A stretch of 64,000 nt of DNA from Asanoa ferruginea (GTDB lineage Bacteria > Actinomycetota > Actinomycetes > Mycobacteriales > Micromonosporaceae), in contig NZ_QUMQ01000001.1 of the NCBI RefSeq assembly GCF_003387075.1, forward strand, positions 2,604,001 through 2,668,000. Direction: 5' to 3'. The first letter of the stretch is position 1, and each line of letters starts with the position of its first letter. Made by a program: the position numbers and the translations under genes. This document shows positions 4,622 to 43,744 of the stretch, one piece after another. The notes below the pieces were generated by a model, which was not told the DNA's origin, ran no database searches, and saw only the letters and a list, made by a program, of their open reading frames with translations.

Positions 4622-4658
4622 CGCAAGGCCGCGCCGCCACCCGTCGCGGGCGGTGCCG

Positions 4659-5010
4659 GCCGAGGTGCGGCCGGTCTTCATGGCCAAAGGCCGCGGGGGC
4701 CGTCCGTTGGCGGGGGTATCGGCCGAGGTGCGACCGGTCTCTATGGCCGAGGTCGCGCCGCCGCCGGTCGCCGGTGGCCCGGCCGAGGTGCGGCCGGTCT
4801 TCACGGCCAAAGGCCGCGGGGTCGTCCGTTGCCGGGGGTGTTGGCCGAGGTGCGGCCGGTCTTTCACGGCCGAAGGCCGCGGGGTCGTCCGTTGCCGGGG
4901 GTGTTGGCCGAGGTGCGGCCGGTCTTTCACGGCCGAAGGCCGCGGGGTCGTCCGTTGCCGGGGGTGTTGGCCGAGGTGCGGCTGGCTTCACGGCCAAGGC
5001 CGCCGCAACC
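4659..5010. repeat. Tandem repeat array, 60-63 bp period, six copies
   Basis: Units beginning GCCGAGGTGCGGCCGGTCT start at 4659, 4722, 4782, 4844, 4907 and 4970. The units starting at 4844 and 4907 are virtually identical, and the earlier ones are diverged. Each unit carries a short hairpin, GGCCGAAGGCC. The array fills the 400-bp gap between the convergent DMT transporter and PHP genes. The 63-bp period keeps several Pro/Arg-rich frames open on both strands, but none has a ribosome binding site or a family match, so I treat the array as noncoding. Confidence 0.85.
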
Positions 5011-18838: not shown

Positions 18839-21800
18839 GTGGCGCTCGCGCTCTACCGCAAATACCGGCCCCGGACATTCGCCGAGGTGATCGGCCAGGA
18901 CCATGTGACAGAGCCGCTTTCGCAGGCCCTGCGCAGCGGCCGGCTCAACCACGCCTACCTCTTCTCCGGGCCGCGCGGCTGCGGCAAGACCTCCAGCGCG
19001 CGCATCCTCGCCCGCTCGCTCAACTGCGAGCGCGGCCCCACTCCTGAGCCCTGTGGGGTCTGCGACTCGTGCCGGGCGCTCGCACCCGACGGCTCCGGCT
19101 CGATCGACGTGATCGAGATCGACGCGGCCAGCCACGGCGGCGTCGACGACGCCCGCGAGCTGCGCGAACGCGCCTTCTTCGCCCCGGCCGCCAGCCGCTT
19201 CAAGATCTACGTGATCGACGAGGCGCACATGGTGTCGACCCAGGGCTTCAACGCGCTGCTCAAGCTGGTCGAAGAGCCACCCGACTACGTCAAGTTCATC
19301 TTCGCGACGACCGAGCCCGACAAGGTCCTCGGCACGATCAAGTCGCGCACCCACCATTACCCCTTCCGGCTGATTCCGCCGGGCATTTTGCGGCCCTACC
19401 TCGAGCAGCTCGCCGACGCCGAAAACGCGAAGGTCGATCCCGCGGTCTTCCCGCTGGTCGTCCGGGCCGGCGCAGGCAGCGCCCGCGACTCCCTGTCGGT
19501 GCTCGACCAGCTCATCGCCGGCGCCGGCCCCGAGGGTGTGAGCTACTCACGGGCGGTGGCCCTGCTCGGCGTGACCGACGCCGCCCTGATCGACGAGATG
19601 TGCGACGCGCTGGCCGCCGGCGACGGCGCTGCGGCTTACGCGACGATCGACCGGGTCGCCGAGGCCGGCCACGACCCCCGCCGCTTCGCTTCCGACTTGC
19701 TGGAGCGTCTGCGCGACCTGATCGTCATGCAGCAGGTCCCCGAGGCGGCGGCCAAGGGCCTGATCGACGGTCCGGCCGACCAGCTCGAGCGGATGAGCGC
19801 CCAGACCCAGCGGCTGGGCCCGGCTACCCTGTCCCGCAGCGCCGACATCGTGCACAACGGCTTGATCGAAATGCGCGGCACCACCGCGCCGCGGCTCCTG
19901 CTCGAGCTGATCACCGCCCGGATGCTGCTGCCGACGGCCGACAAGGGCGAGAGCGGGTTGCTCCAGCGGGTCGAGCGGATGGAACGCCGGCTGTCGCTCG
20001 GCGGTGATTTCGAATCCGGCGAGCCGGATGACGACTACTCCGGTCCCGCCGTGCTCGCCGGGCGTGGGTCTTCTTCGGGCAACCGGCCGCAGGCCGGACC
20101 GGGCGCCGGTGCCGGTTCGGCGGCTGCTGATGGCGGGGTCGAATCCGGCGGTGGCGGTTCGAGGTCGGCCGGTGGCGGCGCGGCCGCGGCGCGGGCGGCC
20201 GCCGCTGCGGCGGCGAGCCGCTCGGGCGGTGCGCGTCGCGGAGATGCCGGATCCACGGATAACGCGGCTGGCAACGGCGGTGATCCGGGGTTGGCGGCGG
20301 GTCGCGCGGGTGGCGCGCGCCGCGGAGATGCCGGATCCACGGACAACTCGGCCGGCAACGGCGGTGCTCCGGGGTTGGCGGCGGGTCGCGCGGGTGGTGC
20401 GCGCCGCACCGAGGTTGTTCCCGCGGATGACGTGGCTGGCAGCGGCGGTGACCCGGGGTTGGCGGATGGTGCGCGCCGCACCGAGGTTGTTCCCGCGGAT
20501 GACGTGGCTGGCAGCGGCGGTGATCCGGGGTTGGCGGCGGGTCGCGCAGGTGGTGCGCGCCGCGCTGAGGTCGTTGCTGCGGATGACGTGGTTGGCAGCA
20601 GCGGTGATCCGGGGTTGGCGGCGGTTGGTGCGCGCCGCACTGAGGTCGTTCCTGCGGATGACTTGGCTGGCAACGGCGGTGGTCCGGTGCCGAGTGACTT
20701 GCCTGGTGATGATCTTGCAGCTGCGGGCGACGTGGCCGGCAGTGGGGAGTGGCCCTCCCAAGCGGATCGCGCCGGTGAAGATGTCGGCTCTGCCGACGAT
20801 GCACCCGGTCGTGGCGGTGATCCGCGTTCGGCGGCACCACAAGCCGACCTTGGCCCAGCATCAAGCGCCGAAAGCGTTGCGCGGGCGAACGGCAGAGCGG
20901 CCGAGGACAGCGACGAAACGGCCGACGGCGACAGTCGCCCGCCACGGCGGGTTCCGCCTCAGGCGGTGATGGCCGACCCCGCCACCCCCGATCCAGTGAT
21001 TCCAGAAGCGGCCGCGCCAGGCGCGCTCGACGCGGCCGCGGTGCGCCGGGTCTGGGACGAGATCGTCGCCATGGTGCGGGTCAACAACAAGAGGATCGCG
21101 GCGTTGGCCAGCGAGGCGACCGTCCGCGACATCGACGGTGACACCCTCGTCCTTACTTTCCGCCATGCCTTCCACGCCCGCACGCTCGCCGAAAGCCCCG
21201 AACCTGTGGTCGACGCGATCTACGAGGTCCTCGGTGGGCGCTGGCAGATTCGCTGCGAGTTGGCCGGCGACCAGCGCGGAGCTGCGGGCCCACCGCCGGC
21301 ACGCCCGACCGCCGCACGCGAGCCGAGCGGCGGCAACGCCCCGGCCGCGGCCCGCGAGACCAACGTCAACGCCCCGGCGGCCAGCGGTTCTGCGCCGGGC
21401 CGGGAGCGGCGCGGTCGCGAGCACTCGTCGAATGGCCAGGGGGAGAGCGGCGCTTCCGGCGACCGCTCCGACGAAGACCACCCGGCCGTCCCTAGCGCCC
21501 GTGCGGTTCAGGATGCTGACCCACCCCCGAGTGAGCTCGCCGAGGAGCGGGTGGCCCCGGCCGACCCCGCCGTTCTTGGGGACGGGCCGGACGAGGCTGA
21601 TCGTGGGCCAGTAGGGAACGTCAGCGCGCAGGACCCGGGTCGTCCTGGGCCGGCCGCCGAACAGGCTCCGGCCCAGAACGGCCAAGGAGCCGGCGACGCG
21701 GCTCGAACCTCCGGACGTCAGGGCGAATCGGGGCCTTCGACCCCGACCGGCCCGGATCGCCGCGACACCGTGGCCAACGCGGATGACGAAGACGACTGGC

Positions 21801-31724: not shown

Positions 31725-33212
31725 ATGACCATGCCCACCCCTCTCCGCTTGAAGTCGGCGGCCGGTCGAGGCGTGCTGTTCGCCACCATCCTCGCTTCCG
31801 GGATGGCGTTCCTGGACGGCACCATCGTCAACGTCGCGTTGCCGCACATCGGGGAAGACCTGGGCTCGACCGTCGCGGGTCTGCAATGGACGGTCAACGG
31901 CTATCTGCTCACCCTCGCGGCGTTTGTGCTGCTCGGCGGCTCGCTCGGCGACCGGCTCGGGCGCCGGAAGATCTTCGTGATCGGCATTGTCTGGTTCACC
32001 GTCGCGTCGGTGCTGTGCGCGGCGGCGCCGACCATCGGCGCGCTGATCGGCGCCCGTTTCCTCCAGGGCGCCGGCGCGGCCCTGCTCACGCCCGGCTCGC
32101 TCGCGATCATCCAGGCGTCGTTCCAACCCGACGACCGCGGCAAGGCGATCGGCATGTGGTCGGGCTTCTCCGGCATCTCCACCGCGCTCGGCCCATTCGT
32201 CGGTGGCTACCTGATCGACGCGCTCTCCTGGCGCTGGGCGTTCCTGATCAACGTGCCGCTCGCGGTGCTCGCCCTGCTCGCGGCGTTCCGCTGGATCCCG
32301 GAGAGCCGCGCGCCGAAGGAGGCCACCCGGTTCGACGCGACGGGCGCGGCCCTGGCCGCACTCGCGCTGGCGGGCATCACGTTCGCGCTGATCGAGGGGC
32401 CCGACGACGGCTGGGGCTCGCCGGTGGTGGTCGGCGCGATCGGCATCGGGGTGGCCTGCGCGATCGGCTTCGTGCTGGTCGAACGGCACAAGGGCGACGG
32501 CGCCATGACGCCGCCTTCGCTGTTCCGCAGCCGGATCTTCACGGTGCTCAACATCTACACCGTCCTGGTGTACGCCGCCCTCAGCGGCCAGAGCTTCTTC
32601 CTCGCCGTGACCCTGCAGAACGTCGCCGGCTACGACGCCCTGCAGACCGGACTCGCCACCCTGCCGGCCACCGGGCTGATGCTGTTGCTCTCGGCCCGCT
32701 CGGGCGCCCTGGCCACCCGGATCGGCGTGCGCTGGCAGCTCACCGTCGGCCCGGTGATCGCCGGGGTCGGGATGCTGCTGCTGCGCGGGATCGGCCCGAA
32801 CGCCGACTATGTCACCGACGTACTCCCTGGTGTGCTGCTCTTCGGTCTGGGCCTGACCACCCTGGTGGCGCCGCTGACCACCGCCGTGCTCGCCGCGGTC
32901 GACATGCGGCATTCCGGCATCGCCAGCGGAGTCAACAACGCGTCGGCCCGGGCCGGTGCGCTGGTCGCGATCGCCGCGCTGCCGCTGCTGGTCGGCCTGA
33001 CCGGCGAGGCCTACCAGGTGCCGGCCGAACTGACCTCGGCGTTCCGCTCGGCGATGCTCTGGTGCGCCGGCCTGATGGGTGCCGGCGCGCTCCTGGCGCT
33101 GGTCTTCTGCGTCGGGCTGCCCAAGGTGCTCTGGCACCGAGCGGTGACGACGATGACCACGGCAACGCATTCAGTGCACCCGGTGCACCCGGTGCGGGAG
33201 AGCGACGCCTGA
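31725..33212 (+). CDS. MFS exporter, DHA2 (EmrB/QacA) family
   Basis: The 495-residue membrane protein shows about 14 helices. Motif D1 is LDGTIVNVALP (residues 30-40) and motif A is GGSLGDRLGRRK (71-82), with GPFVGGYLI of motif C. These mark proton-driven drug exporters. The substrate is unknown. ATG at 31725 directly precedes the first helix region; the frame extends to 31656 without a ribosome binding site. No neighbouring regulator is seen. Confidence 0.88.
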   Translation: MTMPTPLRLKSAAGRGVLFATILASGMAFLDGTIVNVALPHIGEDLGSTVAGLQWTVNGYLLTLAAFVLLGGSLGDRLGRRKIFVIGIVWFTVASVLCAAAPTIGALIGARFLQGAGAALLTPGSLAIIQASFQPDDRGKAIGMWSGFSGISTALGPFVGGYLIDALSWRWAFLINVPLAVLALLAAFRWIPESRAPKEATRFDATGAALAALALAGITFALIEGPDDGWGSPVVVGAIGIGVACAIGFVLVERHKGDGAMTPPSLFRSRIFTVLNIYTVLVYAALSGQSFFLAVTLQNVAGYDALQTGLATLPATGLMLLLSARSGALATRIGVRWQLTVGPVIAGVGMLLLRGIGPNADYVTDVLPGVLLFGLGLTTLVAPLTTAVLAAVDMRHSGIASGVNNASARAGALVAIAALPLLVGLTGEAYQVPAELTSAFRSAMLWCAGLMGAGALLALVFCVGLPKVLWHRAVTTMTTATHSVHPVHPVRESDA

Positions 33213-33242
33213 ACAGGGGCTGCGCGTAGGTGATCTTCAAAC

Positions 33243-33248
33243 TATGCT
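33243..33248 (+). promoter_or_regulatory. Leaderless -10 box, first fascin-like gene
   Basis: TATGCT ends 6 nt before GTG 33255. GGTGATCTT starts 14 bp upstream of the box, as it does at the second paralogue. Confidence 0.55.
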
Positions 33249-33254
33249 CCGCCG

Positions 33255-34739
33255 GTGCGTCTGACTCGCAAACTCGCTGTGCTCGCCGCGGTCCTGGTCG
33301 TGACCGCCGGCACCGTTGCCGTGGCACCGCCGGCGCTGGCCGCCGTCGCGCCGACGATCGTCGCCACCGCGGTGTGTGACGAGGCCACCGCCACCTACAC
33401 GGTGACCTGGACCGTCACCAACGCAAAGGAGACGCCGGCGACCATCAACAGGGTGGTCGCCAACCCGCCGGCGCCGGTCGGCACCTTCACCGGCATCGCG
33501 GTCGGTGACGTCGTGCCGCCGGCATCGCAGGGATCGCTCACCGCGACCGCGACCGTGCACAGCTACCTGCGGCAGAACACGAACCTGCAGATTTACCTCG
33601 ACGGAGGCTCCCAGTACTCGAAGCTGGTGACCTTGCCGGTCTGTGGCAATCCGGTCCTGCCGATCGTCAGCTTCACCTCGGATTGCGACTACCTGACTCT
33701 CAGCGTTTCGATGCCTGCTGGCGGCTATCCGGTGCAGGTCCTGACCAGCCCGGCCAGTGACCCGGAGCTTGGGATCGTGCAGCCCGGCGCTCCCGCGCAG
33801 ACAGTCAAATGGCGTTCACCTGACGAAGAGATCTTCACGGTGCTGGCGTATGTCGGACAGCTTGCGCCAGGTCGGTGGGAGCCGGAGCCGTCCTGCGTGG
33901 CGCCGGTGTCGCTCGGGCAGTTCCAGCTCTTCGCCAGCGTCAACTTCCGCTACGTCGTGCCGTCGGCCTCCGCCAGCCCGGGTCGGGTCGACCAGGCGAT
34001 GGCCGACGAGGTTCGTTCGAACGAGGAAGCCAACACCAACTTCGAGTTTCTCGACGCCGGCGACGGCTATATCGCGATCCGCGAGCCGGAGCAGGACCTG
34101 CTGTTGACCTATTTCAGCGACGCCGCACCGCTGGGCTGGTCGTGGGACGGCCGCGTGGGCGACCCGCAGCGGTTCCGGCTGATCAAGAACGCCGACGGGA
34201 CGGTCAGCCTGAGCGCCAAACTCAACGGCAAATACGTCACCGCCGAGAAGGCCGGCGCGAAGCCGCTCTACGCCAACCGCACCGCGATCGGGCCCTGGGA
34301 GAAGTTCACCCGGTACGCGGCCAACAGCGGTCCGGGCACAATCAACGCGATCGTCAACAACCTGAACGTGACGGCCGAGTCGGCGGGTAAGAAGCCGCTG
34401 ATCGCCAACCGGATGGACCCCGCCCGGTGGGAGTTCTTCTACGTCGAGAACCTCGGCAACGACGAGGTCGCGCTGCGGTCCCTGGTCAACGGCAAGTACG
34501 TGTGCGCCGAGTCGGCCGGCAAGAAGGAACTGATCGCCAACCGCACCACCGTTGGACCGTGGGAGACCTTCAAGGTCATCCGGAACGGCGACGGGTCGGA
34601 AAGCCTCAAGGCCAAAGCCAACGGAAAATACGTCACCGCCGAGTCGGCCGGCCGCAAGCCGCTGATCGCCAACCGGACCGCGATCGGGTGGTGGGAGAAG
34701 TTCAACCTCTACGGCTACAACGGCGCGACAGGAGCCTGA
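33255..34739 (+). CDS. Secreted beta-trefoil (fascin-like) repeat protein, paralogue 1
   Basis: The 494-residue protein has a Sec signal peptide (residues 1-30, PPALAA) and an Ig-like N-terminal domain (about 35-130). A further beta domain with two Cys follows. The C-terminal region (about 215-494) has six trefoil-like motifs; the best are NGKYVTAEKAGAKPLYANRT, NGKYVCAESAGKKELIANRT and NGKYVTAESAGRKPLIANRT, each followed by PWEKF-type closures. The repeat pattern matches fascin-type beta-trefoils, which bind carbohydrate or actin in other organisms; the ligand here is unknown. First of three tandem paralogues; no Shine-Dalgarno, leaderless -10 present. Confidence 0.82.
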   Translation: MRLTRKLAVLAAVLVVTAGTVAVAPPALAAVAPTIVATAVCDEATATYTVTWTVTNAKETPATINRVVANPPAPVGTFTGIAVGDVVPPASQGSLTATATVHSYLRQNTNLQIYLDGGSQYSKLVTLPVCGNPVLPIVSFTSDCDYLTLSVSMPAGGYPVQVLTSPASDPELGIVQPGAPAQTVKWRSPDEEIFTVLAYVGQLAPGRWEPEPSCVAPVSLGQFQLFASVNFRYVVPSASASPGRVDQAMADEVRSNEEANTNFEFLDAGDGYIAIREPEQDLLLTYFSDAAPLGWSWDGRVGDPQRFRLIKNADGTVSLSAKLNGKYVTAEKAGAKPLYANRTAIGPWEKFTRYAANSGPGTINAIVNNLNVTAESAGKKPLIANRMDPARWEFFYVENLGNDEVALRSLVNGKYVCAESAGKKELIANRTTVGPWETFKVIRNGDGSESLKAKANGKYVTAESAGRKPLIANRTAIGWWEKFNLYGYNGATGA

Positions 34740-34788
34740 CCGCGACGGCACGGCCGAAAAGCGGACCCCGCGTCGGTGATCTTGGAAC

Positions 34789-34794
34789 TAGGCT
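34789..34794 (+). promoter_or_regulatory. Leaderless -10 box, second fascin-like gene
   Basis: TAGGCT ends 7 nt before GTG 34802, with GGTGATCTT 5 bp upstream of the box, matching the first paralogue. Confidence 0.55.
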
Positions 34795-34801
34795 GCGTGC
34801 C

Positions 34802-36301
34802 GTGCGTCTGAACTCCAAGATCGCCGTCGTCGTCGCGGCGCTGGTTGGCTCGGGTGGTGCCGTTTTCGTGGCATCACCGGCGCTGGCCGCGGTGCCCAAA
34901 CCGACGATCACCATGAACGCCGTCTGCGACGCGGCAACCGCTACCTACACCGTGACGATGGCCATCACCAACGCCACCGAGACTCCGCTGGCACTCACCG
35001 AGACCTCGGTCCTGCCGCCCGCACCGGTCAGCACCATCAGCGGCTTCGCGGTGGGCGACATCCTGCCGCCGGCGTCGCAGGGATCGCTCGTCGCGACCAT
35101 GACCATGCACAGCTACCGCAACAACCAGGTCCCGGACCTGTCATTCCGCCTCGAGGGGTCGACAACCCCCTACGGCGGCGGTCTGCTCCTGCCGCTGTGC
35201 GGTGAGCCGGTCCAGCCGACCGTCCAATTCACCTCGCACTGCGACGAGTTCGAAATCACCGTCGCGATGCCCGAGGGCGGTTATCCGGCGCCGATGTATG
35301 TCGATTACGACCACCTGCCGACGTTGGTGGTGGAACCCGGTGGTCCGGCGAAGACCTGGCGGTTCCCCTGGACCAAGGTGAACGCGCCGCTCGCGGTGTG
35401 GATCCAGAACGTCGGGCCGGTGGCGACCGGGCAGTGGGTCGAGCCCTCGTCGTGCGAGTCGACGCCACCACCCCCGCCTCCGCCGGCGTCGCTGGGCGTC
35501 TTCAACCTGTTCGCCCAGGCCAACTTCCGCTACCTCGTTCCGGCCGCGAGCGGCGTGAACAACCAGGGTCCGGTCGACTCGGTGCGGGCGATCGAGACCG
35601 CCCCGAAGGTCGACGCGACCAACCTCGAGTTCCTGGACGCCGGCAACGGCGATGTCGCGGTGCGGCAACCGGGCAACAAGACGCTGCTGACCGTCGCCGG
35701 CGACACGGTGCCGCTGCGGTGGACGTCGAGCCAGTCGATCCTCGACTCGCAACGGTTCCGGCTGCTCACCAACACCGACGGCACGGTGAGCCTGCGCGCC
35801 AACCTCAACGGCAAGTATGTGACCGCGGAGAAGGCCGGCGCTCAGCCCCTTTTCGCCAACCGGACCGCGATCGGCCCTTGGGAGAAGTTCACCCGGAATG
35901 CGAAGGGCACGGGCCCGGCCCCGATCAACGCGCTCATCAACAACAAGTTCGTGACCGCGGAAAAGGCCGGCGCTCAGCCGTTGATCGCCAACCGCGGCGT
36001 CGTCGGCCAGTGGGAGTTCTTCACCGTCGAGTCGCTCGGCAACGGCAACGTCGCGCTCAAGTCGCTCGTCAACGGCAAGTATGTGACCGCCGAGAAGGCC
36101 GGCGCGAAATCGCTGATCGCGAACCGCGCGGTGGTCGGCCCGTGGGAGACGTTCAAGGTGATCACCAACGCCGACGGGACCGAGAGCCTTCAGGCACAGA
36201 TCAACGGTAAATATGTCACTGCGGAGAAAGCCGGCAAGCAGGCGCTGATCGCCAACCGCACGGCGATCGGGCCGTGGGAAAAGTTCAATATTTTCGGCTG
36301 A
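34802..36301 (+). CDS. Secreted beta-trefoil (fascin-like) repeat protein, paralogue 2
   Basis: The 499-residue paralogue has the same layout: signal peptide (about residues 1-29, SPALAA), Ig-like domain, second beta domain, then a short poly-Pro hinge (PPPPPPPASLG) not present in paralogue 1. A trefoil follows with units NGKYVTAEKAGAQPLFANRT, NNKFVTAEKAGAQPLIANRG, NGKYVTAEKAGAKSLIANRA and NGKYVTAEKAGKQALIANRT. Its units are more alike than in paralogue 1, suggesting recent homogenisation. The start GTG follows a TAGGCT -10 box; the open frame further upstream to 34427 overlaps paralogue 1 and is spurious. Confidence 0.82.
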   Translation: MRLNSKIAVVVAALVGSGGAVFVASPALAAVPKPTITMNAVCDAATATYTVTMAITNATETPLALTETSVLPPAPVSTISGFAVGDILPPASQGSLVATMTMHSYRNNQVPDLSFRLEGSTTPYGGGLLLPLCGEPVQPTVQFTSHCDEFEITVAMPEGGYPAPMYVDYDHLPTLVVEPGGPAKTWRFPWTKVNAPLAVWIQNVGPVATGQWVEPSSCESTPPPPPPPASLGVFNLFAQANFRYLVPAASGVNNQGPVDSVRAIETAPKVDATNLEFLDAGNGDVAVRQPGNKTLLTVAGDTVPLRWTSSQSILDSQRFRLLTNTDGTVSLRANLNGKYVTAEKAGAQPLFANRTAIGPWEKFTRNAKGTGPAPINALINNKFVTAEKAGAQPLIANRGVVGQWEFFTVESLGNGNVALKSLVNGKYVTAEKAGAKSLIANRAVVGPWETFKVITNADGTESLQAQINGKYVTAEKAGKQALIANRTAIGPWEKFNIFG

Positions 36302-36335
36302 CGATAGGGGACAGCGAAAGCGGCCATCGTGGATT

Positions 36336-36341
36336 TAGGCT
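36336..36341 (+). promoter_or_regulatory. Leaderless -10 box, third fascin-like gene
   Basis: TAGGCT ends 6 nt before GTG 36348. The upstream GGTGATCTT element is only partly conserved. Confidence 0.5.
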
Positions 36342-36347
36342 GCGCCC

Positions 36348-37796
36348 GTGCGCCTGACCCGTAAGTTCGCCGTTCTCGTCGCCACCATCGTGGCAGCGGG
36401 TGGTGCCGTTGTGGCGGCACCACCCGCGCTCGCCGCCCCACCACTGACGACGACGGCTGTCGCCGTATGTGATGCGGCCAGCGCGACCTACACGATCACC
36501 TGGACGATCACCAACGCCGCCGAGACCCCGTTGACCATTGCCTCGGTGTGGCTTACCCCGGACGCTCCGATCAGCGCGCTGAGCGGGATCGCGCCCGGCT
36601 CCATCGTGCCGCCCGCGTCCGAGGGTCCCCTGATCGCGACCTCGACCGTGCACAGCTATTTCTTCTCCCGCGCGATTATCCGGATGACACTCGAGGGATC
36701 GCCCAACGTCTACGGTGGCGGCCCCAGCCTGCCGGTCTGCGGCAAGCCGGTGATGCCGCAGATCGGCTCCGTCTCGCGGTGCGACGCATTTGAGATCAGC
36801 GCCGAGATGCCGGCGAATGGCTATGCCGTTTCACTCAGCATCCGCGACCAGCCCACGCTGATTGTCGAGCCGGGGATGCCCGCGAAGAAGTGGACGTTGC
36901 CCGCCGAGCCCGGAGCTGTCTACGTCGAAATCCCGGGCCAAGGCTTCGTCGCCTCCCCCGAGTGGGTGCCACCGCGCTCGTGCGTGTCGCCGTCGCTGGG
37001 CGTTTCCCAGCTGTTCGCGCTGGTCAACTACCGCTACGTTTTGCCGACCAACGCGGGCCCCGGCACGCCGGTCGACACGGTGCGGGCCGACACGATCAGC
37101 CCGATCGAACAGACCAAACTCGAGTTTCTCGACGCCGGCGACGGATACATCGCGATCGAACAGCCCGCCAACAAGTCCTTGTTGTCTGTTGTCAGCGACA
37201 CCGAGCCGTTGCGGTGGCAGTTCCACGACTACGTCGGTGATGCCCAACGGTTCCGGCTGGTCACCAACGCCGACGGGTCGGTCAGCCTGCGGGCCAAGCT
37301 CAACGGGAAATATGTCACCGCCGAAAAGGCAGGGAAGCAGCCGTTGTATGCGAACCGGGCGGCGATCGGCCCCTGGGAGAAGTTCACCCGTTACGCCGTG
37401 GGCGCGGGGCCCGCACCGATCCTCGCACTGGTCAACAGCGGCTTCGTGACGGCGGAGTCGGCCGGCAAGAAGCCGCTGATCGCCAACCGCGGCGACGCAG
37501 CCCTGTGGGAGTTCTTCTTCGTCGAAGACCTCGGCAACGGCAAGGTGGCGCTGAAGTCCCTGGTCAACGGCAAGTACGTGACCGCGGAATCGGCCGGCAA
37601 GAAGCCGTTGATCGCCAACCGGGCGGCGGTCGGGCCGTGGGAGACGTTCACGCTGGTCAGCAACGCCGACCAGACGCAGAGCCTCCGGGCGCAGGTCAAC
37701 GGCAAGTATGTGACGGCCGAGAAGGCCGGTGCGCAGCCGCTGATCGCCAACCGGGCCGCGATCGGGCCCTGGGAGAAGTTCAACCTGCTCCGCTGA
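36348..37796 (+). CDS. Secreted beta-trefoil (fascin-like) repeat protein, paralogue 3
   Basis: The 482-residue paralogue has a signal peptide (about residues 1-28, PPALAA), Ig-like domain, second beta domain with paired Cys, and a trefoil with NGKYVTAEKAGKQPLYANRA, NSGFVTAESAGKKPLIANRG, NGKYVTAESAGKKPLIANRA and NGKYVTAEKAGAQPLIANRA. It lacks the poly-Pro hinge of paralogue 2. A strong terminator follows, so the three genes end at 37838. Function is unknown; a secreted surface-binding or lectin-like role is inferred. Confidence 0.82.
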   Translation: MRLTRKFAVLVATIVAAGGAVVAAPPALAAPPLTTTAVAVCDAASATYTITWTITNAAETPLTIASVWLTPDAPISALSGIAPGSIVPPASEGPLIATSTVHSYFFSRAIIRMTLEGSPNVYGGGPSLPVCGKPVMPQIGSVSRCDAFEISAEMPANGYAVSLSIRDQPTLIVEPGMPAKKWTLPAEPGAVYVEIPGQGFVASPEWVPPRSCVSPSLGVSQLFALVNYRYVLPTNAGPGTPVDTVRADTISPIEQTKLEFLDAGDGYIAIEQPANKSLLSVVSDTEPLRWQFHDYVGDAQRFRLVTNADGSVSLRAKLNGKYVTAEKAGKQPLYANRAAIGPWEKFTRYAVGAGPAPILALVNSGFVTAESAGKKPLIANRGDAALWEFFFVEDLGNGKVALKSLVNGKYVTAESAGKKPLIANRAAVGPWETFTLVSNADQTQSLRAQVNGKYVTAEKAGAQPLIANRAAIGPWEKFNLLR

Positions 37797-37802
37797 ACAG
37801 CC

Positions 37803-37838
37803 CGGAGCCCGGCACCCATGTTCGGGTGCCGGGCTCCG
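37803..37838. terminator. Bidirectional terminator between paralogue 3 and leuA
   Basis: A perfect 15-bp stem CGGAGCCCGGCACCC/GGGTGCCGGGCTCCG with a 6-nt loop, followed by a short T-rich stretch on the plus strand. Confidence 0.85.
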
Positions 37839-37857
37839 GTCTTTCCGGGATCGCCGG

Positions 37858-43233: not shown

Positions 43234-43744
43234 CGGATAACTCGCTGCTGACCGCATCGCGGCAACGCCCGCAGCGGCGGCAACACGGTGCTGCCGCAGC
43301 GGGTGCCGCCTCTGCGGCGCCCGCTGGTCGCTGGGCGTGTTGCGGCGGTGCCGCACGGTTCGCAAGCCCCGACGGGTCGAGGCTTGGGCGTGTTGCGGCG
43401 GTGCCGCATGGTTCGCAAGCCCCGACGGGTCGAGGCTTGGGCGTGTTGCGGCGGTGCCGCATGGTTCGCAAGCCCCGACGGGTCGAGGCTTGGGCGTGTT
43501 GCGGCGGTGCCGCATGGTTCGCAAGCCCCGACGGGTCGAGGCTTGGGCGTGTTGCGGCGGTGCCGCACGGTTCGCAAGCCCCGACGGGTCGAGGCTTGGG
43601 CGTGTTGCGGCGGTGCCGCACGGTTCGCAAGCCCCGACGGGTCGAGGCTTGGGCGTGTTGCGGCGGTGCCGCACGGTTCGCAAGCCCCGACGAGGCGAGC
43701 GCCTCCGCAGGGCTGTGCGCGTGAGATGACGAGCTAAGCGAGCC
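43234..43744. other. Gene-free region between asd and the YqeY gene
   Basis: This 510-bp gap between convergent genes holds an array of 53-bp repeats (43333-43703), preceded by about 100 bp of GC-rich hairpin-forming sequence. The frames inside are not coding: a 53-bp period shifts the reading frame at each unit. Confidence 0.75.
43333..43703. repeat. Tandem repeat array, 53-bp period, seven copies
   Basis: Units start GGGCGTGTTGCGGCGGTGCC at 43333, 43386, 43439, 43492, 43545, 43598 and 43651; the last is diverged and truncated. They differ mainly at one position (GCAC or GCAT). Each contains two potential hairpins: GCGGCGGTGCCGC, and CAAGCCCCGA with TCGAGGCTTG. Transcripts from asd would fold as a string of hairpins. 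Confidence 0.92.

Follow-up and report, generated by a model that had tools for sequence, protein, structure and literature searches.

Three adjacent genes of Asanoa ferruginea join a wall-protein-type head to tandem CBM92-like trefoils

What does a bacterium gain from three neighbouring copies of a gene for an apparently exported protein made of beta domains? The question is raised by W1, W2 and W3, three adjacent genes in a 64,000-nucleotide stretch of the Asanoa ferruginea genome (the window), which an earlier note had described as a tandem triplication of secreted fascin-like proteins. Much of that description was borne out. The genes span 482–499 codons, start with GTG and encode products that are 57–62% identical to each other, with signal-peptide-like N-termini ending in AxA (read from the sequence rather than called by a predictor), and the Ig-like domain and second beta domain that had been noticed form an immunoglobulin (Ig)-like pair. 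The seven-proline hinge is likewise private to W2, being absent from the other eight aligned paralogues. On the evidence below, we think it somewhat probable that these are secreted, multivalent, non-catalytic glucan-binding proteins with a wall-protein-type head, coating hyphae or gluing them to glucan surfaces.

The repeat part of each protein was analyzed with a single-lobe profile, which picks out four lobes, spaced 44 residues apart, in W1, W2 and W3 alike. The two lobes that precede these four are too degenerate for this profile (it scores them at 0.9 bits in W3 and misses them in W1 and W2), and are backed by alignment with the double trefoils of other bacteria and by a structural model. 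The AlphaFold2 (AF2) model of W3 residues 214–482, built from 11 aligned rows, has a predicted local distance difference test score (pLDDT) of 89 and a predicted template modelling score (pTM) of 0.80, and each of its halves (model residues 1–139 and 141–269) matches beta-trefoils. Since both halves match, in addition to the support from the lobe profile and the alignment, we read the repeat part as two trefoils: structure prediction upheld the trefoil fold that the earlier note had seen, although not its count of one per protein.

Going by its sequence and binding-site residues, the second trefoil belongs with CBM92. It is 39% identical to 7zoh_A and 32% to 7zoi, with a root-mean-square deviation (rmsd) of 1.3–1.5, and it has the CBM92 fold, a beta-trefoil of about 125–150 residues with three subdomains; PMC11039641 gives ≥37% as the within-family identity threshold. 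Across the nine intact proteins of the family in this genome, WExF is found in 26 of the 27 trefoil-2 lobes, with WEFW in the remaining one, and R-x5-WE in all 27, the arginine of which, by counting along the alignment, would correspond to the cleft arginine of the CBM92 crystal structure. In trefoil 1, lobe 3 carries WExF in seven of the nine proteins.

The head contains four invariant cysteines (C41, C130, C144 and C214 in W1) and matches no Pfam family above its cut-off and no NCBIfam family. When a profile of the nine heads was run against 354 genomes of the family Micromonosporaceae (nine candidates scored per genome), the A. ferruginea genome matched at E <1e-69 at nine loci, the next best match was at 4.6e-19, and matches at E ≤0.01 occurred in 224 of the genomes. 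At 17 of 19 fetched foreign loci, an open reading frame (ORF) ends with LPxTG, a hydrophobic stretch and basic residues, and profile-profile comparison (hhalign) of the heads with nine such proteins gave a probability of 99.2 and an E of 1.4e-19 over 186 columns. A. ferruginea itself has at least one LPxTG protein of this kind, near 4.0095 Mb. LPxTG is absent from all nine trefoil proteins, each of which ends in or just after its last lobe, and none has the combination of sortase motif, membrane span and basic tail.

Described, if remote, members of these surface proteins are known from Actinoplanes missouriensis. The report on them (PMC13251363, mBio 2026) gives CwpA as 337 residues with cysteines at 44, 146, 213 and 292 and CwpB as 436 residues, and reports no significant homologues within A. 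missouriensis itself. One searched genome (G046) has adjacent genes of exactly 337 residues, with CwpA's four cysteine positions, and then 436, and because of these equalities we take it to be A. missouriensis. This pair (L156) falls within a broad LPxTG family in Micromonosporaceae, and match positions suggest neighbouring pairs in several genomes. Another LPxTG protein, L053, is 59% identical to CwpA over residues 145–299 and 36% over 3–167, and matches the paralogue heads with a best E of 1.7e-11.

The family is not confined to the window. Six further intact copies lie elsewhere in the genome: two of the nine, together with a broken one, are within 1.870–1.894 Mb, and four stand alone. The broken tenth copy (L014, G000 1870305–1871746) has a frameshift between head and trefoils. 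The 18 matches in the genome comprise the nine intact copies, the two halves of the broken one and seven in five enzyme-like ORFs; stops inside two matches come from the match overrunning the gene end, and the nine genes translate without stops. With W3 as the query (four candidates scored per genome), 29 of the 354 family genomes match at E ≤1e-50 and only A. ferruginea end to end; among the matches listed, those of other genomes align to the trefoil part. In a class-wide sample of 394 genomes, which overlaps the family sample, the head profile, with eight candidates scored in each genome, matched one genome at E 1e-9, again A. ferruginea. The earlier note knew of no described system of this kind, and the combination of wall-protein-type head and CBM92 trefoils was not seen among the papers listed by literature searches; both halves, however, have described relatives.

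We then compared the locus with five congeners (G001–G005), in none of which was the full architecture found. In A. ferruginea the triplet is flanked by a major facilitator superfamily (MFS) transporter gene, ending at 33212, and a convergent leuA (both named from their translations). In G001–G004 the aligned ends of these two genes are 75–97 bases apart with a terminator hairpin between them; the G002 locus (L021) shares all 3344 of its 40-base words with the Asanoa iriomotensis locus L085, on which ground the genus is taken to be Asanoa. G005, a sister species, has a single gene there, encoding 308 residues with a signal peptide and two trefoils behind a similar promoter stretch. When the trefoil parts are placed in a tree (16 rows), W1–W3 and the G005 gene fall in one group (99/98) inside the A. 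ferruginea family (100/99), with no supported order within. Because the other paralogues keep their heads, it is simpler to suppose that G005 has lost its own. The family seems to be lineage-restricted. As a separate observation, TGAACAG marks either end of the triplet (33210–33216 and 37794–37800) and is present once in the G002 empty site, which might reflect a short target duplication or might be due to chance.

Each gene seems to form a transcription unit by itself. The -10 box that the earlier note assigned to each was found again, as TANNNT 6, 7 and 6 bases before the GTG of W1, W2 and W3, as was the upstream element common to two of them, GGTGATCTT, which lies just 5′ of the box and is replaced by TGATCATC in three other copies. 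Among the nine intact copies, the broken one and the G005 gene, the distance is six bases in ten of 11 and seven in one, which suggests that transcription starts at the GTG, without a leader. In contrast, the 11 LPxTG-type relatives shown have AGGAG (nine) or TGGAG (one) before the start, the cwpB stretch not being at its likely start. Across the genome, GGACAGC-N18-21-TANNNT-N6-GTG has five matches, of which four are at family starts, and its reversed control has none; the sole match outside family starts is at G000:C1:6683722-6683762.

Taken together, the proteins are most likely adhesins or coat components. Judging from the signal peptide, they would leave the cell by Sec export, and each protein would present, on its two tandem CBM92-type trefoils, three or four Arg/Trp/Glu sites predicted to bind glucosyl units. 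The likeliest ligand is a glucan with beta-1,6 linkages or beta-1,6 branches. The Ig-like pair, which is homologous to wall proteins anchored by sortase but lacks their sortase signal, may act at the hyphal surface. Head and trefoils together would then cover the hyphae or stick them to a glucan matrix or to the walls of fungi or lichens, by multivalent attachment with no covalent anchor. A more daring version is tentative and, we think, rather less apt to hold: the fusion of a CwpA-kind head to tandem CBM92 trefoils would be a sortase-free re-anchoring, and some ten genes with their own leaderless promoters would furnish a redundant glucan-bound coat that, in one Asanoa lineage, tunes how hyphae adhere to or spread over glucan, whether fungal or their own.

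Several observations weigh against adhesion to glucan through such a head. The WE site is absent from lobes 1–2 of trefoil 1 in all nine proteins (WExF in 0 of 18). CBM92 domains, according to PMC11039641, nearly always accompany a hydrolase or lyase, and W1–W3 have no glycoside hydrolase or lyase Pfam domain. One CBM92 subgroup binds carrageenan, so the ligand here may differ from glucan. The syntenic G005 gene lacks the Ig pair, making the N-terminal part dispensable at this locus. The head profile gives CwpA 20.9 bits and CwpB 11.3 (best of the 966 of 1200 shuffles reported, 7.2), and heads compared pairwise with these proteins match weakly (best E 0.025 to CwpA, 1.4e-4 to CwpB); since these direct scores are low, the tie to CwpA runs via intermediates such as L053. 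Finally, the strict promoter pattern is unmatched in five of the nine intact copies.

A developmental coat, in which the trefoils bind extracellular glucan made by the bacterium itself (the sheath of hyphae or spores) while the head modifies surface hydrophobicity, is an unlikely but serviceable explanation. It fits the homology of the head to LPxTG wall proteins and the common promoter layout, which suggests co-expression; PMC13251363 proposes a surface-hydrophobicity role for CwpA/CwpB and describes an altered colony growth mode on deletion of cwpA or cwpB. However, CwpA and CwpB themselves are remote homologues, and because four of the five congeners have no such gene at the locus and the full architecture was found in none of them, a core developmental function is unlikely. 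Nutrient capture, with secreted binders keeping glucans of fungi or algae close to the cell, where hydrolases secreted separately would act on them, seems more doubtful. CBM92 is tied to glucan use in soil bacteria, and this genome joins CBM92-like trefoils to GH25, GH95-like, ThuA, glucose/sorbosone dehydrogenase and GH99-like (below cut-off) domains, but the role needs no wall-protein head, and of ten neighbouring proteins scanned around five loci, six have a Pfam family, in no case that of a glucanase or sugar transporter, and four have none at E 1e-5.

The idea that one scaffold carries different target-recognition parts, so that the diverged heads of the paralogues recognise different target organisms, has little going for it. 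Mean pairwise identity among the nine copies is 0.52 for the signal, 0.48 for Ig1, 0.41 for Ig2, 0.49 for trefoil 1 and 0.70 for trefoil 2, which makes Ig2 the fastest-evolving domain, and the expansion was observed in one genome only. Yet the ratio of nonsynonymous to synonymous change (dN/dS; Nei-Gojobori, three window pairs, synonymous sites partly saturated) is 0.33–0.74 for Ig2 and 0.27–0.36 for trefoil 2 and stays under 1 for each of the four domains in every pair, so the faster change in the heads is still constrained; the G005 gene does without a head, and in W1–W3 no domain of a toxin, enzyme or effector passes the cut-off. A fascin-like cytoskeletal cross-linker can be set aside: fascin fills the top Foldseek rows for the whole trefoil pair (E 1.5e-15, TMq 0.55; CBM92 first at rank 30) and W2 and W3 narrowly pass the Pfam Fascin cut-off (21.0, 25.0 and 24.9 bits for W1, W2 and W3 versus 23.1), but the signal peptides and cysteine pairs, the rmsd of trefoil 2 (1.3 on CBM92 versus 6.6–14 for fascin rows) and the presence of two trefoils rather than fascin's four all oppose it, leaving 'fascin-like' apt for the fold and not for the sequence, site residues or apparent export.

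Features of the triplet and its surroundings (window positions)
Feature	Position	Strand	Remarks
W1 promoter-like stretch	33218..33248	+	GGCTGC (33218-33223), N19, TATGCT (33243-33248), six bases before GTG
GGTGATCTT in W1 promoter spacer	33229..33237	+	
Gene W1	33255..34739	+	494 aa; signal peptide, Ig-like pair, two trefoils; best PDB match by sequence CBM92 7zoh
W1 N-terminal Ig-like pair (aa 31-214)	33345..33896	+	four invariant Cys; fold from W3 model
W1 trefoil 1	33909..34322	+	lobe 3 with WEKF; WE site absent from lobes 1-2
W1 trefoil 2, CBM92-like	34323..34715	+	three R-x5-WE lobes
W2 promoter-like stretch	34775..34794	+	GGTGATCTT (34775-34783), TAGGCT (34789-34794)
Gene W2	34802..36301	+	499 aa; architecture as W1, plus poly-Pro hinge
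W2 N-terminal Ig-like pair	34892..35455	+	
W2 seven-proline hinge	35465..35485	+	
W2 trefoil 1	35489..35905	+	
W2 trefoil 2	35906..36298	+	
W3 promoter-like stretch	36309..36341	+	GGACAGC (36309-36315), TAGGCT (36336-36341)
Gene W3	36348..37796	+	482 aa; architecture as W1
W3 N-terminal Ig-like pair	36438..36983	+	modelled, pLDDT 69-92 by blocks of ten
W3 trefoil 1	36993..37400	+	
W3 trefoil 2, CBM92-like	37401..37793	+	
Terminator-like hairpin between W3 and convergent leuA	37802..37839		kept in empty sites of four congeners

Elsewhere in the window there are tandem arrays at 43332–43699 (53-base unit, 6.9 copies, 98% matches), downstream of an aspartate-semialdehyde-dehydrogenase-like ORF (named from its translation), and at 4658–5003 (63-base unit, 5.6 copies, 85% matches), and overlapping repeats of 72, 84 and 156 bases at 20209–20687 within a long ORF.

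Apart from the locus itself, the proteins can be set against known systems. CBM92, described almost only as an enzyme accessory, appears here to do the main work in secreted proteins that stand alone, joined to a surface module that is a remote relative of proteins controlling exploratory growth. This gives a testable handle on how filamentous actinobacteria may grip glucan surfaces with no sortase involved, and on the way a family of surface proteins can grow in one lineage while sister species lack it. Fascin shares tandem beta-trefoils of related fold, whereas the window proteins have an apparent export signal, two trefoils and glycan-site residues. The GH25 protein L015 of the same genome likewise has two tandem CBM92-like trefoils but also a GH25 catalytic domain. 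Like the sortase-anchored LPxTG proteins of Micromonosporaceae, the window proteins have a signal peptide and Ig-like domains in tandem, with two cysteines enclosing each domain, but they carry trefoils in place of the LPxTG/transmembrane tail. The closest likeness in the trefoils is to CpCBM92A/B of Chitinophaga pinensis (PDB 7zoi/7zoh), beta-trefoils with the same WExF and arginine spacing as the trefoil-2 lobes, from which the window proteins differ in having tandem trefoils with lobes 1–2 siteless, no hydrolase or lyase, and a wall-protein-type head fused to them.
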